DNA of 64,000 nucleotides from Haloferula helveola (GTDB lineage: Bacteria; Verrucomicrobiota; Verrucomicrobiia; Verrucomicrobiales; Akkermansiaceae): positions 2,728,001 through 2,792,000 of the forward strand of contig NZ_AP024702.1 in NCBI RefSeq assembly GCF_037076345.1. The letters run 5' to 3'. Below are positions 3,084 through 10,593 of the stretch, one piece after another; the first letter of the stretch is position 1; each line of letters starts with the position of its first letter. The translations under genes and the position numbers were made by a program. Below the pieces are notes generated by a model. That model was not told the DNA's origin and did not search any database. It was given only the letters and a program-made list of their open reading frames with translations.

Positions 3084-3110
3084 AGGGGTCAGGCCTCGCA
3101 CTTTAACATT
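3084..3110. repeat. REP-like arm at the 3' side of the first transposase
   Basis: This 27-bp stretch is the reverse complement of 4141-4167 with one mismatch. It carries the core GGGGTCAG. The last codons and the stop codon of the transposase (encoding MLKCEA-stop) lie inside it, so the repeat is part of the gene's 3' end. Together with 4141-4167 it frames the transposase as an inverted pair. Confidence 0.8.
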
Positions 3111-4105
3111 CGCTCCAATGCCTTCGCTTGTCTCGCAAGGTTCGGCTCTTTGGCGATCCTGCCAACCTCACGGCTGACGCTTCCCGGGTGGCCCATCGCG
3201 AGCCGCTCGCCGAGCCAGGCATTCGATGCCGACGTCTGCCGCTTCACCCACCACTCCACAACCGCTTTTTCGTCTCTGTAGCGACCTCGCCCGGAGAGCT
3301 CCGCCGGTCGGGTAGGCAAGCCCAAGCCCAACACCGCTTCCCGGATCCGCCGTTCAGCCTCCCTTTCGTCATGCGCGCGTGCTCCCGCGCCAGTCACGCT
3401 TCCCCGCTTGCGCTTGGGGCGGAGCCCGCCGGCGAGCACGTCCAGCAACTGGTCACCGAAACCCTCCTCTCCAAGATACCATCCCCGACGGAGCGACTTC
3501 AGGGACTCATCGTTCAAGGTGCCCTCGCGATCCTTCGCCCGTGCCTCCAGGTAGGAGGCGTAGGCCGCCCGGCCGCGACGGTTGCCCGCCAGCTCGAATG
3601 CCCGCAAAACCCGGTCCGTCTCCAGCCACGGCAGCGTCCTCCGGCTCGCGTAGGTCGGGAAGCTGCTCCACGCCCACTCCTTGAGTTCCCGGCCCGTGTC
3701 TCCTCCGACCCAGCCGCTTCGAACGGGATTGAGATGGATGTAGTCGGCGACGATCCGGAAGTAGTGGTCGTCGCCTTCCCCGTTGACCACCACCGCCTTG
3801 TAGCGCCCTTGGAAGACGTGGCCGCGGCGCTTCCTCCGTCGGTTCCACGCTTGCGAATAGGCCCCCATCATCCACTTCATGCCTTTCACCAGATTCGGCT
3901 CGGGGGTTTCGAGCAGCAGATGAAAATGGTTGCCCATCAACACATAGGCGTGGACCCGCCAGCCGAAACGTCCCCATGCCTCCTCGATCCGCGACCGCCA
4001 GTCGTGACGGTCGGAGTCGGTCTCGAACACGTCCTTGCCGCCATCGCCGCGGGCCATGACGTGGTACACCGCACCGGCGGCTTCGTAGCGGAGGGGCCGG
4101 GCCAT
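3089..4105 (-). CDS. REP-associated tyrosine transposase with C-terminal helix-turn-helix
   Basis: A 338-residue member of the Y1_Tnp (IS200-like, RAYT) family of single-strand DNA transposases. The HUH metal-binding motif is GNHFH with H60 and H62; the nucleophile is Y122 in VADYIHLNPVRSG. The N-terminal ARPLRYEAAGAVYHVMARG is typical of the family. The C-terminal part (about 275-330, ending NAWLGERLAMGHPGSVSRE) resembles a DnaA-type helix-turn-helix, which longer members carry. All catalytic residues are present, so it is probably active. It is flanked by a 27-bp inverted repeat (3084-3110 and 4141-4167) whose core recurs around the neighbouring kinase cassette, suggesting that this enzyme recognises the GGGGTCAG core. 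Confidence 0.9.
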   Translation of the reverse strand: MARPLRYEAAGAVYHVMARGDGGKDVFETDSDRHDWRSRIEEAWGRFGWRVHAYVLMGNHFHLLLETPEPNLVKGMKWMMGAYSQAWNRRRKRRGHVFQGRYKAVVVNGEGDDHYFRIVADYIHLNPVRSGWVGGDTGRELKEWAWSSFPTYASRRTLPWLETDRVLRAFELAGNRRGRAAYASYLEARAKDREGTLNDESLKSLRRGWYLGEEGFGDQLLDVLAGGLRPKRKRGSVTGAGARAHDEREAERRIREAVLGLGLPTRPAELSGRGRYRDEKAVVEWWVKRQTSASNAWLGERLAMGHPGSVSREVGRIAKEPNLARQAKALERMLKCEA

Positions 4106-6866: not shown

Positions 6867-7155
6867 GGATTGTTGGCTTCATTGGTTTGGGGAGTGGAAT
6901 GAGGCTTTGATGATCACGGTCTAGCAGGCCGTTGGATCGAAGGGAAGCGGGAGAGCGTGCCCGCCGCGCGGGAGTGGCCTCCTTCGGCGGAGCCACCGAC
7001 TGCGTCGGAGTGCCTGACGGCATGAGAAGTGGCAGACTTGGGCTCCGGGGCGGACTGAAGTCCGCGCACCATGCTCGGATGCCGGGGCGCGGTCGGAGCC
7101 GCGCGGTCCTTTGGGGATTCCGGATGGGGTCCATCGACAGGAATGTCGATGCCCC
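6867..7155. repeat. Repeat-filled spacer between the cassette and mutS
   Basis: No gene seen. It holds a hairpin repeat with stem CGGACT-GA-AGTCCG at 7047-7070, a second hairpin repeat on the same scaffold with stem GCGCGG/CCGCGC at 7084-7109, and a perfect 8-bp-arm hairpin CATCGACA-GGAA-TGTCGATG at 7132-7151. The last one ends 4 bp from the mutS stop codon and may act as its 3' end structure; the same hairpin follows another gene at 45094-45109. Confidence 0.7.
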
Positions 7156-10008
7156 TTAGTCAAACAAATCGAGCTGGGGCGGATTGGGATCCGGCATGTC
7201 CTTGGGCCGCGTGTTCTTCGCCTTCGGGCCGCGCTTTTTGGCGTCGGGCTTGGCGCTGTGCATCTCAAGGTGGCTGAGGATGTCCTTGGCGCGGTCGATG
7301 ATGGGGGTGGGGAGGCCGGCGAGGCGGGCGACCTGGATGCCGTAGGACTTGTCGGCGGCGCCGGGGACGATCTTCCTCAAGAAGATGATCTCGTCGTTCC
7401 ACTCGCGGACGGCGACGTTGTAGTTGGCGACGGCGGCGCGGGTCTCGGTGAGGTCGGTGAGCTCGTGGTAGTGCGTGGCGAACAAGGTGCGGCACCGGGT
7501 GACATCATGGAGGTGCTCGGCGACAGCCCAGGCGATGGAAAGGCCGTCGAAGGTCGCGGTGCCGCGGCCGATCTCGTCGAGGATGACGAGGCTGCGGTCG
7601 GTGGCGTGGTTGAGGATGAGCGCGGTCTCGTTCATCTCGACCATGAAGGTGGACTGGCCACGCGAGAGGTCGTCGCTGGCGCCGACACGGCAGAAGATGC
7701 GGTCGACGAGACCGACGGTGGCGGATTCGGCGGGGACGTAGGCGCCGATCTGGGCCATCAGGGTGATGAGGGCGACCTGGCGGATGTAGGTGGATTTGCC
7801 GGCCATGTTGGGGCCGGTGAGGATTTGGACGAGGGAGAGGTCGGCGGGGCCGTCCGGCGATTCGGGGCCGGTGGTGAGTGGGGAGTGGTCGGTGGTCGGT
7901 GGGGACTGGGGTTCCGCCGCCGGACGAGCGGGGGCGCTCGTCCCTACCTCTTGGGCTCCGGGGCCGGCTGAAGCCGGCGGTCCATTTTCTGGATTCTGAC
8001 CACTGACCACTGACCCCTCATCACCAGAGCCCGAATCAGGGGGCGGGACGAATTCGGTGTCATTCGGCACGAACTTCTCATCGACCAAGGTCTGCTCGAG
8101 GACGGGGTGGCGGCCGTTGGTGATTTCGAGGTAGCGGCTTTCTTCAAGGACGGGGCGGGAGTGGCGGTGGGTTTGGGCGACGTCGGCGAGGCCGCCGAGG
8201 ACGTCGATCTCGGCGACGGCGGCGGCGGTTTCCTGGAGGGCGTCGAGGTGGGTGCAGACCTGCTGCCTCAGCTCGAGGAAGAGCTCGTGCTCGAGTTGCT
8301 TGGCGCGCTCTTCGGAGCCGAGGACCTTGCTTTCCATCTCCTTGAGCGCGGGGGTGATGAAGCGCTCGGCGTTGGCCATGGTCTGCTTGCGCGTGTAGTC
8401 GTCGGGAATGGTGGCGGTGGCGAGCTTGGCGGCGGAGATCTCGATGAAGTAGCCGAAGACGTTGTTGAACTTTACCTTGAGCGAGTCGATGCCGGTGCGC
8501 TTGCGCTCGTCCTCCTGAAGCTGGGCGATCCACTTCTTGCCGTCGCGGCCGGCGGCGCGGAGTTCGTCGAGCTCGGCGCTGTGGCCGTCGGCGATGAGGC
8601 CGCCGTCTTTTAATGTGGCGGGGGGTTCTTCGGAGAGGGAGGTGGCGAGGAGTTCGGTGAGAGAGGTGAAGTCGTGGAGCTTGGCGGAGTGACTCGTGAC
8701 GAGTGAGGAGTGTGAAGTGGGAGACTGGGGCTCTGGGGCGCGGTCGGAGCCGCGCGGTCCTTGCTCGGGTTCCGGGGCGCGACTGGGGTCGCGCGGTCCG
8801 TTCTCTGAATTCTGACCACCGGCCACTGAACCCTGACCACCGGCGGCTGCTCCCTGGCCCCCGACCCCTGACCCCATGGGGAGGCTGAGGAGGTCCTCCT
8901 TGAGGGTGGGGATGTGGCTTAGGGAAGTGGCGAGGGCTTGGAGGTCGCGGGCGTTGCCGGCGCCTTGGGAGAGGCGGGAGGTGGTGCGTTCGATGTCGCG
9001 GATGCCTTGGAGGGACTCGCGGACTTTGCTGAGGATGAAGGGCTCGGCGAGGAAGGCGGCGATCATTTCCTGGCGGGCGAGGAGGGCCTCGCGGTCGCGC
9101 AGGGGGTGGAGGATCCAGTCGCGCAGGAGTCGCGCGCCCATGGGGGTCTTGGTGCGGTCGAGGACGCCGAGCAGGGTGTGCTTGCGGCCGGAGCGGGAGT
9201 CGACGAGGTCGAGGTTGCGCTGCGAGGCGGCGTCGATGAGCACGATGCCGTCGTCCTCGCGGACCTTGAGCGAGCGGAGGTGCTCGCAGGGGCGGCGGAG
9301 CTGGTGGACGAGGTAGTGGAGGACGGCGCCTGCGGCCCCGATGGCGGCGGGCATTTCGGCGCAGCCGAAGCCGTGCAGGGAATGGACGCCGAAGTGGTCC
9401 TTGAGGAGCTGGCCGGCGGGATCGGGGAGGAAGGCGAAGGCGTCGTAGGCCTGGGAGGCGGGGAGCGCGCCGAAGGCCTCGAGCTGTTCGTCGGAAACGA
9501 GGAGCTCGGAGGGCGTGAGGCGGGCGAGTTCGTCGTCGAGCGGGCCGCGGGAGTCGAACTCGGTGAGGGTGAAGGAGCCGGTGGTGTGGTCGACGCAGGC
9601 GAGGCCGAACTTCTTCCCGAACTGGAAGACGGCGGCGAGGAAGTTCGGGCGGGCGTCGTCGAGGAGGTGGTGCTCGATGATCGAGCCGGCGGAGATGATG
9701 CGGGCGATCTCGCGCTCGACGATTTTCCCGGGCTGCGGCTCGGTCGTTTGCTCGGCGATGGCAACGCGCTTGCCGGCCTTGACGAGCTTGGAGATGTAGT
9801 TGTCGGCCGCGTGGTACGGGACGCCGCACATCGGCACCGAGTTGCGTCGGGTGAGGGCAACGTTGAGGATGGGCGCGGCGGTCTGGGCGTCCTCGAAGAA
9901 CATCTCGTAGAAGTCGCCGAGGCGGAAGAGGAGGAGGACGTCGGCGGGCAGCGAGCGGCGCATCGATTGATACTGCGCCATCATCGGGGTGAGCTTGGTG
10001 CCGGCCAT
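7156..10008 (-). CDS. mutS: DNA mismatch repair ATPase MutS with two repeat-derived insertions
   Basis: A 950-residue MutS, against about 850-880 for the family. It recognises mispaired bases and recruits MutL. The mismatch-binding domain opens TPMMAQYQSMRR with the following FYEMFFEDA (the Phe-X-Glu wedge). The ATPase domain has Walker A TGPNMAGKST near residue 730, Walker B VILDEIGRGT and the THYHEL motif. The extra length comes from two in-frame blocks: about residues 377-440 (between the core and lever parts) and about 655-717 (just before Walker A). Both are rich in Gly, Pro, Ser and Glu, and their DNA is made of the same palindromic repeats found between genes. The frame and all catalytic motifs are intact, so the protein may still work. 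The C-terminus is a short basic tail and a DLFD end. Confidence 0.97.
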   Translation of the reverse strand: MAGTKLTPMMAQYQSMRRSLPADVLLLFRLGDFYEMFFEDAQTAAPILNVALTRRNSVPMCGVPYHAADNYISKLVKAGKRVAIAEQTTEPQPGKIVEREIARIISAGSIIEHHLLDDARPNFLAAVFQFGKKFGLACVDHTTGSFTLTEFDSRGPLDDELARLTPSELLVSDEQLEAFGALPASQAYDAFAFLPDPAGQLLKDHFGVHSLHGFGCAEMPAAIGAAGAVLHYLVHQLRRPCEHLRSLKVREDDGIVLIDAASQRNLDLVDSRSGRKHTLLGVLDRTKTPMGARLLRDWILHPLRDREALLARQEMIAAFLAEPFILSKVRESLQGIRDIERTTSRLSQGAGNARDLQALATSLSHIPTLKEDLLSLPMGSGVGGQGAAAGGQGSVAGGQNSENGPRDPSRAPEPEQGPRGSDRAPEPQSPTSHSSLVTSHSAKLHDFTSLTELLATSLSEEPPATLKDGGLIADGHSAELDELRAAGRDGKKWIAQLQEDERKRTGIDSLKVKFNNVFGYFIEISAAKLATATIPDDYTRKQTMANAERFITPALKEMESKVLGSEERAKQLEHELFLELRQQVCTHLDALQETAAAVAEIDVLGGLADVAQTHRHSRPVLEESRYLEITNGRHPVLEQTLVDEKFVPNDTEFVPPPDSGSGDEGSVVSGQNPENGPPASAGPGAQEVGTSAPARPAAEPQSPPTTDHSPLTTGPESPDGPADLSLVQILTGPNMAGKSTYIRQVALITLMAQIGAYVPAESATVGLVDRIFCRVGASDDLSRGQSTFMVEMNETALILNHATDRSLVILDEIGRGTATFDGLSIAWAVAEHLHDVTRCRTLFATHYHELTDLTETRAAVANYNVAVREWNDEIIFLRKIVPGAADKSYGIQVARLAGLPTPIIDRAKDILSHLEMHSAKPDAKKRGPKAKNTRPKDMPDPNPPQLDLFD
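7858..8045. repeat. Repeat block inserted in frame in mutS, before Walker A
   Basis: Holds one arm of the 94-bp REPIN family (7921-7947, CGGACGAGCG/CGCTCGTCC hairpin ending CCCTACC), a hairpin on the CCGGGGC...CGGTCC scaffold with stem GCCGGC/GCCGGC (7960-7983), and a run of TGACCACTGACCACTGA (near 7997-8013) also found between genes at 10299-10325. Read on the minus strand it encodes about 63 residues absent from other MutS proteins, including EVGTSAPARPAAEP. Confidence 0.8.
8690..8880. repeat. Repeat block inserted in frame in mutS, mid-protein
   Basis: Contains two adjacent copies of the GGGGCGCG...CGCGCGGTCC hairpin repeat (8735-8760 and 8774-8799, with different loop and stem bases) and a TGACCACCGGCCACTGA run (8813-8829). 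It encodes about 64 low-complexity residues (for example GPRGSDRAPEPQSP) between conserved MutS segments ending DLLSLPMG and resuming KLHDFTSL. Confidence 0.8.
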
Positions 10009-10593
10009 TGCCTAGAGGCTGAACATCGAACGTCGAACGTCCAACTTTGAAGTTCGGGGGAATGGCCGTTGGGGTGGTGCGGGCTTTGGTGATGAGGGGC
10101 TAGTGGCCAGGGAGTGGGGGGAAGGGTGGGCGGCGTCGGCAGGTAGAGCGGGAGGTGTGGGGTGGGCGGGTTGGTGCGCGGACTTCAGTCCGCATTTCTT
10201 CGGACTGGGTTCCGGGGCGGACTAAAGTCCGCGCACCATGCCGGGGCTCCGGGGCGCGGTCGGAGCCGCGCGGTCCGTTTCATTGGAGGCGGGACTGGCC
10301 ACTGACCACCGGCCACTCATCACCAAAGCGGGAGCAATGAGGCCGGGTCGCCTCGAGTGGGGGTGGTTCGTTCGCTTGGGCTTCCTCCTTCGCCTAGGCT
10401 TCGGCGGACATGCTGCGGCGGGTTGCAAACCCGCTCTCCTGATTTCTGGCCCCTAACCCCCGACCGCTGTCCCCTCTCCTACTGACCACCGGCCACCGGG
10501 CACTCATCACCGAAGCTGGAACAACGGGACCGGGTCGCCTCGGGTGGAGTCGGAGCTTGCTTGGGGCGAGGCGGCTGGTGAGGGTGGGAGTGG
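10009..10593. repeat. 585-bp gene-free cluster of interspersed repeats
   Basis: No convincing gene. Next to the mutS start is the element CGAACGTCCAACTTTGAAG (10036-10054), also found at the rlmN start. An inverted pair of the GGACT/AGTCC hairpin (10173-10193 and 10214-10237) makes a 65-bp REPIN-like unit, followed by a GCGCGG/CCGCGC hairpin copy (10251-10276) and two TGACCACCGGCCACT-type runs (10299-10325 and 10484-10510). The same repeat types, in similar order, make up the insertions in mutS next door. Confidence 0.75.

Follow-up and report, generated by a model that had tools for sequence, protein, structure and literature searches.

Dispersed Repeats of the Genome Within Two Loops of MutS in Haloferula helveola

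The mutS gene of Haloferula helveola, which lies in the 64,000-nucleotide stretch analyzed here (positions 2,728,001 to 2,792,000 of contig NZ_AP024702.1, a single-contig genome of 5,677,198 bases; hereafter the window), carries two in-frame segments that contain palindromic and heptameric repeats dispersed elsewhere in the same genome. Judging from the sequence and from a structural model, we assign a probability of about 0.85 to the explanation that these segments are accretions of the genome's own repeats in two tolerant loops of MutS, where they would be read as disordered linkers of a protein that keeps working.

According to this explanation, repetitive extragenic palindromes (REPs) of the type associated with REP-associated tyrosine transposases (RAYTs), together with units of heptamer repeats, would have inserted into two surface loops of MutS as stretches whose length is a multiple of three bases and that lack stop codons. 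Selection would let through only in-frame, stop-free insertions at tolerant loops, and the inserts would be translated as disordered linkers while MutS continued to function. Once a loop was occupied, more repeats could enter, be swapped or be lost there, and this continuing exchange would be the reason why species differ in content at the same sites.

Position and boundaries of the two inserts

A profile search identified all five Pfam domains of MutS (domains I–V) in the 950-codon frame, which was compared with the best solved MutS chain and with an alignment of 51 MutS proteins from named genome records. The gene and the two inserts are as follows (pLDDT, predicted local distance difference test).

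7156–10008, minus strand: mutS, 950 amino acids, a single open frame (open reading frame, Pfam, structure alignment)
8698–8874, minus strand: insert 1, approximately residues 379–437, in a domain III loop, +59 residues relative to Haloferula luteola (alignments; pLDDT below 50 at 383–432)
7843–8043, minus strand: insert 2, approximately residues 656–722, in the loop directly before the Walker A strand, +67 residues relative to H. luteola (alignments; pLDDT below 50 at 659–721)

In the structural alignment, residues 374–431 (break at 373/432) were unmatched and fell between chain residues 382 and 385, and residues 656–727 (break at 655/728) fell between chain residues 605 and 610. Site 1 (P367–L443) comprises 77 residues here versus 18 in H. 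luteola, and the 51 MutS proteins range from 16 to 53 with a median of 22; site 2 (N649–T731) comprises 83 residues versus 16, with a range of 15 to 50 and a median of 16. Insert 2 ends just upstream of the Walker A motif GPNMAGKST (residues 732–740). The length of both inserts is a multiple of three bases and neither contains a stop codon; REPs lie wholly within a conserved gene whose frame is open and whose orthologues lack them, as expected of an in-frame intragenic REP insertion.

Repeat families and their copies in the genome

The repeats within the inserts and on either side of mutS are listed below; L-numbered stretches (L055–L113) are other parts of this genome, and gene positions refer to our own gene calls.

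8768–8799, minus strand: family A palindrome of insert 1, strict copy (strict pattern)
8729–8760, minus strand: second family A palindrome of insert 1, 1 base off the strict pattern (sequence identity)
8805–8875, minus strand: heptamer-type repeats on the N-terminal side of insert 1
8687–8712, minus strand: heptamer-type repeats on the C-terminal side of insert 1
7954–7983, minus strand: family A palindrome of insert 2, strict copy, 32/32 bases identical with L057:13135-13166 (strict pattern, identity)
7922–7948, minus strand: family B arm (GTAG-type REP) of insert 2, with an identical 27-mer elsewhere in the genome (strict pattern)
7998–8025, minus strand: left arm of the 28-nt inverted repeat of insert 2, composed of heptamer repeats and matching the dispersed GGTGATGAG-heptamer unit
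7870–7897, minus strand: right arm of this inverted repeat, whose score of 13 was reached by 0/200 shuffles
10204–10328, no strand: intergenic repeats upstream of mutS, with the same kinds of palindrome and the GGTGATGAG-heptamer unit
7037–7112, no strand: repeats between genes downstream of mutS, including similar palindromes

The inserts are thus made of repeats to a large extent: insert 1 holds two 32-base family A palindromes and heptamer DNA, and in insert 2 the heptameric arms of the 28-nt inverted repeat enclose a 30-base family A copy as well as the family B arm. Two pieces of insert DNA, 28 and 32 bases long, recur identically in intergenic DNA elsewhere in the genome; a 28/28 match spanning the first 26 bases of the second family A copy of insert 1 was found at window positions 7084–7111 and at L055:14098-14125.

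Genome-wide, the strict pattern of family A (30–32 bp) had 56 matches and that of family B 68, and both patterns had none when read backward. Four of the 68 family B matches were non-palindromic by eye and were set aside, leaving 64; one site, L064:8476, fits the pattern without being palindromic and was rejected as a chance match. Family A copies were intergenic in 52 cases, gene-internal in three and across a gene end in one, and family B copies in 50, nine and five cases, respectively; mutS harbors two strict copies of family A and one of family B, in addition to the family A copy that is 1 base off. Both families are therefore short palindromes with many dispersed, mainly intergenic copies, as is characteristic of RAYT-associated and GTAG REPs. 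The family B pattern starts with GGTAG, and the family was classed as GTAG-type by this tag. Among the listed copies of family A, no GTAG tag was present at either end, and the family was accordingly kept out of the GTAG superfamily. Inverted pairs of family B, as in REP doublets forming hairpins (REPINs), occur elsewhere in the genome as the 106-nt family D1, and mutS contains only a single family B arm.

Could the segments be ordinary low-complexity linkers of a GC-rich gene, which resemble repeats by composition only? Some distant MutS proteins do reach 53 residues at site 1 and 50 at site 2, the linkers of UvrA are hypervariable in the genus, and several single hairpins are non-significant by shuffling. 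However, identities of 27 to 32 bases with the repeat families, the absence of any match to the reversed patterns, and the 28-nt inverted repeat of insert 2 make this explanation almost certainly wrong as a whole, and for the palindromes it is largely refuted. A scan for strong hairpins (arms of at least 10 bases, 464-kb sample) gave 27 hairpins, nine of them in genes versus seven after one shuffle; it was dropped in favor of repeat identity because families with short stems escape such a scan.

The third dispersed unit consists of GGTGATGAG followed by GGTCAGT-like heptamers. Its loose pattern fits nine places in the 996,052 bases that were read (the window and 76 further stretches, 56 of which were picked for repeats; 809 called genes): one in mutS, seven between called genes and one (L056:737) that looks like chance. 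In the same DNA, which because of this partial selection does not give genome averages, period 7 accounted for 31 intergenic tandem arrays, and no other period between 3 and 30 for more than three. Four period-7 arrays lay in coding sequences, two of these within mutS, with no excess over other periods there (up to nine). Intergenic arrays in which different heptamers stand back to back over up to 269 bp were also observed at L097:2303-2462, L106:3122-3280, L108:5243-5511 and L109:18926-19194.

The prevalence of period 7 is compatible with a variant in which only the palindromes were transposed and the heptamer parts grew inside mutS by replication slippage; an excess of heptameric repeats is known from many bacteria, and their published explanation is slippage (PMC4692102, PMC4679880). 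We consider this variant unlikely, since the left arm of insert 2 matches the dispersed GGTGATGAG-heptamer unit, whose seven other good copies all lie between called genes, and since the heptamer arms of insert 2 form an inverted repeat around the palindromes both in H. helveola and in a second species of the genus (G017).

The same kinds of repeats were also found in other genes. We scanned the 996,052 bases with 598 13-mers that recur between genes and obtained nine gene-internal segments in seven of the 809 called genes, and none with the reversed library. The coding bases covered amounted to 1,106 versus 428 for the reversed library, which formed no segment; the intergenic coverage was 11,438 versus 18 bases, an excess that arises by construction. 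In addition to mutS (two segments), the genes encode a 1906-aa fused UvrA (two segments), HsdM, PriA, a U32 peptidase, an alpha/beta-hydrolase-like frame and a large protein at L113; UvrA, PriA, HsdM and the U32 peptidase were named by Pfam, and the last two by eye or not at all. The fused tandem UvrA (L076:1384-7104; genome approximately 1306079-1311799) has a family B arm in frame at each of three linkers, the third arm being added by the strict pattern, and its linkers were hypervariable across the 17 genus genomes compared, with a repeat-like look in several. PriA (L084:2545-4923) contains a family B arm and further repeat-like DNA directly before its Walker A motif, HsdM carries family B in frame, and the segment of the U32 peptidase is a GGACTGAAGTCC palindrome. 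A whole inverted pair of family B lies in frame in the alpha/beta-hydrolase-like frame (L078:2689-3489), whose coding score is low and which could be a decaying gene. Strict copies also lie inside the called genes L092:2422-3459 (family B, at L092:3201) and L113:3005-4105 (family A, at L113:3201). Of the mutS elements, only one was picked up by a test for in-frame insertion that scored 60-codon flanks, because adjoining elements spoil the flank score. Four of the seven repeat-bearing genes encode DNA-transaction enzymes, which with seven genes is no more than a hint.

These results bear on a first-pass annotation of the window, which had described MutS as holding two in-frame insertions of mobile palindromes, one of them an arm of a REPIN family. 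Conservation of the segments in distant MutS proteins, or a lack of matching repeats elsewhere, would have spoken against that description. Neither segment has a counterpart in solved MutS chains or in H. luteola, matching repeats are abundant, and the alignments, the 28/28 and 32/32 identities and the 56 and 68 strict matches confirm the insertions, the REPIN arm being the family B arm of insert 2. The claim that the inserts are made of palindromes applies to families A and B and is incomplete, because heptamer (7-bp) repeats, which the annotation did not mention, form part of both. MutS does contain repeats, as claimed, but is not unique, since UvrA, PriA and HsdM also carry family B in frame.

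A RAYT may have carried copies of the repeats into mutS. The Y1_Tnp profile had 12 matches in the genome, 11 of which were over the cut-off. The match at 3,901,771 is preceded by one family A copy and followed by two in the opposite orientation, and these copies share the stem of the second family A copy of insert 1. REP copies on either side of a RAYT gene are the usual RAYT-REP arrangement, which was found for family A at this one of the 12 matches, with three copies. The flanks of the match at 2,050,448 hold GGACTAAAGTCC or GGACTTTAGTCC palindromes. Family B was absent from the 1.5 kb on either side of each of the 12 matches, and its original flanks may lie further away. The window itself includes a Y1_Tnp (RAYT-like) gene at 3089–4105, approximately 3 kb from mutS, and two further Y1_Tnp genes of similar length (approximately 350 aa) are present elsewhere in the genome.

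Distribution in the genus and the state of MutS

A MutS match was obtained in 16 of 18 genomes of the genus (including H. luteola, G016; Luteolibacter marinus, G012; and Haloferula sp. BvORR071, G015). Both inserts were present in four of the 16, namely H. helveola (G000), G013, G014 and G017, and the other 12 had no insert 2 and a short site 1; two of these, G007 and G010, contain AATCAAC heptamers in loop 1. The remaining two genomes, G001 and G005, had no MutS match though MutL was present, which reflects either an assembly gap or a loss; loss is not claimed because both are drafts (90–92% complete). In a MutS tree (745 gap-free columns, 22 species), the four insert species formed a clade next to H. 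luteola, the node uniting them having a support of 0.635 and the node that adds H. luteola one of 0.998, and the inserts were likely gained in the ancestor of the four species.

The contents of the inserts differ among these species. Insert 1 ends with AATCCGC heptamers in G013 and with CACTCGT-like heptamers in H. helveola, G014 and G017, and the stems also differ. Because the four species share filled sites with different contents, the segments are not two single recent insertions, as had first been proposed; we infer instead an order of events in which early occupation of the loops was followed by exchange. Approximately 24–31 kb was read from each of G013, G014, G016 and G017. Family B was found in UvrA of G013, and the DNA read from H. 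luteola (G016) contained no match to family A, family B or a perfect heptamer.

Both loops are occupied in all four species although their contents change, which might indicate that selection has kept the inserts because they give MutS an additional role, for instance in contacting a partner or the DNA of the repeats themselves. We regard this as highly improbable: no peptide is conserved, the segments are disordered in the model, and the same kinds of repeats lie in unrelated proteins. The inserts would then reflect tolerance rather than benefit.

Several lines of evidence concern the activity of the protein. An AlphaFold2 model had a mean pLDDT of 83.6 and a predicted template modelling score (pTM) of 0.82, with pLDDT below 50 only at residues 383–432, 659–721, 920–934 and 945–950; in this model, both inserts are predicted to be disordered in an otherwise confident fold. 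The key residues of the FYE, Walker A, Walker B and H-loop motifs were invariant in 52 sequences, so that domains I–V and the key residues of a functional MutS are all present, and all 18 genus genomes had a MutL match above the cut-off. We also compared nonsynonymous (dN) and synonymous (dS) divergence within two groups, the four species with inserts and nine others in which large inserts are absent (for MutL, eight of the nine). The dN of MutS was 0.073 in the former versus 0.062 in the latter, a smaller rise than those of GyrB (0.085 versus 0.045), MutL (0.163 versus 0.099) and UvrA (0.101 versus 0.077).

The alternative that the inserts impair MutS and that the clade is a mutator draws on a raised dN/dS of MutS in the clade, on the position of insert 2 approximately nine residues before the Walker A motif, and on a speculation about mutators by Di Nocera et al. 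(2013; PMC3733652). It is nonetheless very unlikely, given the retained key residues and MutL, the comparatively small rise in dN, a frame that stays open in four species despite changing inserts, and the fold predicted to be intact. A working MutS with repeat-made loops is favored over a mutator because key residues, MutL and amino-acid divergence look normal. The view of the first-pass annotation that the frame and the catalytic motifs survive is borne out by the 950-codon open frame and the invariant residues, and the loss of function at which it had hinted left no apparent sign in the key residues, MutL, dN or the model.

Some observations weigh against accretion in a working MutS. Short stems are non-significant: shuffled sequences did as well in 190 of 200 cases for insert 1 of H. 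helveola, in 132 for site 1 of G017, in 145 and 136 for G013, and in 48 and 20 for G014, which is why the case for a repeat origin leans on repeat identity. Family A was seen only in mutS in the DNA read from G014 (27 kb) and G017 (24 kb), and it may not be dispersed in these two species. The distribution may also reflect a loss of the inserts in H. luteola instead of a gain, given the support of only 0.635 for the four-species node. Finally, the dN/dS of MutS was 0.261 in the insert clade versus 0.069 in species without large inserts, and some relaxed constraint on MutS may exist in the clade. The ratio is raised because dS is low: it was 0.28 for mutS versus 0.58 for UvrA, 0.97 for GyrB and 1.39 for MutL in the same four species. 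Third positions of mutS are C-rich (C3 of 0.66–0.69 in the four species, in a table that uses the longest frame for UvrA, GyrB and MutL, perhaps wrongly for some rows), and this can lower dS. Relaxed selection was for these reasons not claimed from dN/dS.

Probable recurrent use of the two loops and comparison with known systems

At the family level, MutS was found in 250 of 260 genomes. In the genus g7 (G023 and G132), loop 1 is long and looks repeat-like; it contains AATCAAC heptamers in G132, and its best inverted repeat in G023 was non-significant (65/200 shuffles). In G164 and G184, site 1 was longer by approximately 30 residues. Of the 51 MutS proteins in the alignment, 10 had a site 1 of at least 38 residues and five a site 2 of at least 30. 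An inverted repeat reached by at most 2/200 shuffles was found at site 1 in four of the 10 (L197, L198, L199 and L206) and at site 2 in three of the five (L198, L199 and L206); the other eight of these 15 long loops had no significant inverted repeat. L197 and L206 are recorded as Limisphaerales, L198 as Verrucomicrobia subdivision 3 and L199 as Verrucomicrobia, and their MutS proteins are 50–51% identical to that of H. helveola. L198, L199 and L206, with inverted-repeat segments at both sites, are distant metagenome-assembled genomes (MAGs). Within the kilobases read from these genomes, the distant loop segments had only short or weak matches.

The fillings differ by lineage: the Haloferula/Luteolibacter clade has REPs and heptamers, loop 1 of G007, G010 and G132 has AATCAAC heptamers, and the distant MAGs have inverted-repeat segments. 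One of the two loops follows the domain III helix, and the other directly precedes Walker A. Recurrent capture of repeats at the same two loops is likely, and this repeated use may be the part that is new. The broader proposal that the two loops are landing sites for unrelated repeat families across Verrucomicrobiota, with loop turnover tuning mismatch repair and mutation rate, is a speculative and unlikely one.

The case shows a key fidelity protein lengthened by the genome's own mobile repeats. Close relatives without the inserts make it possible to test directly what the inserts do to mismatch repair. An effect of the loops on repair would tie the mutation rate to repeat activity, and the absence of any effect would make them a clear example of selfish DNA that a repair enzyme tolerates. 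Independent filling of these two loops in other lineages, if it occurred, would amount to a series of natural experiments on how selection filters in-frame insertions.

Literature searches found no paper on REPs of Luteolibacter or on heptamers of Opitutaceae and, among the papers listed and judged by their titles and the beginnings of their abstracts, none on repeats in mutS. The closest precedent is that of Di Nocera, De Gregorio and Rocco (2013), whose main text describes GTAG and CGTC REPs within open reading frames, single or paired, with genes for DNA synthesis and repair prominent; in their data the verrucomicrobium Opitutus terrae had the most intragenic GTAG repeats, with double inserts in its two uvrA genes (PMC3733652). 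The string 'muts' does not occur in that main text. Family B resembles those repeats in that it starts with GGTAG and also sits in UvrA. By comparison with the cases described in that main text, the present one differs in that several repeat classes, heptamer arms included, are stacked in one MutS loop, and in that segments of other origin fill the same loops in other lineages.

Rickettsia palindromic elements (RPEs), an older parallel, are likewise short palindromes that lie in frame in conserved protein genes and are apparently tolerated. RPEs are approximately 105–150 bp long and encode a conserved peptide (PMC10969869, PMC2229807), whereas the genome studied here, of 5.7 Mb, has RAYT-like genes and its elements are 27–32-bp REPs with more than one type of stem. 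The mutS inserts may work like RPEs, by analogy of mode only. As in REPIN/RAYT systems, family B forms inverted pairs, one of them whole in a called gene, and family A flanks a RAYT-like gene; in contrast, mutS has only a single family B arm, and most copies here are intergenic. The heptameric repeats of cyanobacteria, Xanthomonas and Beggiatoaceae are intergenic tandem 7-mers, with units often side by side, as in this genome; unlike those repeats (PMC4692102, PMC4679880), the heptamers described here also occur in coding loops, as inverted arms around REPs. Repeats in repair genes have thus been known since 2013, and the MutS of H. helveola is a new, unusually layered example.

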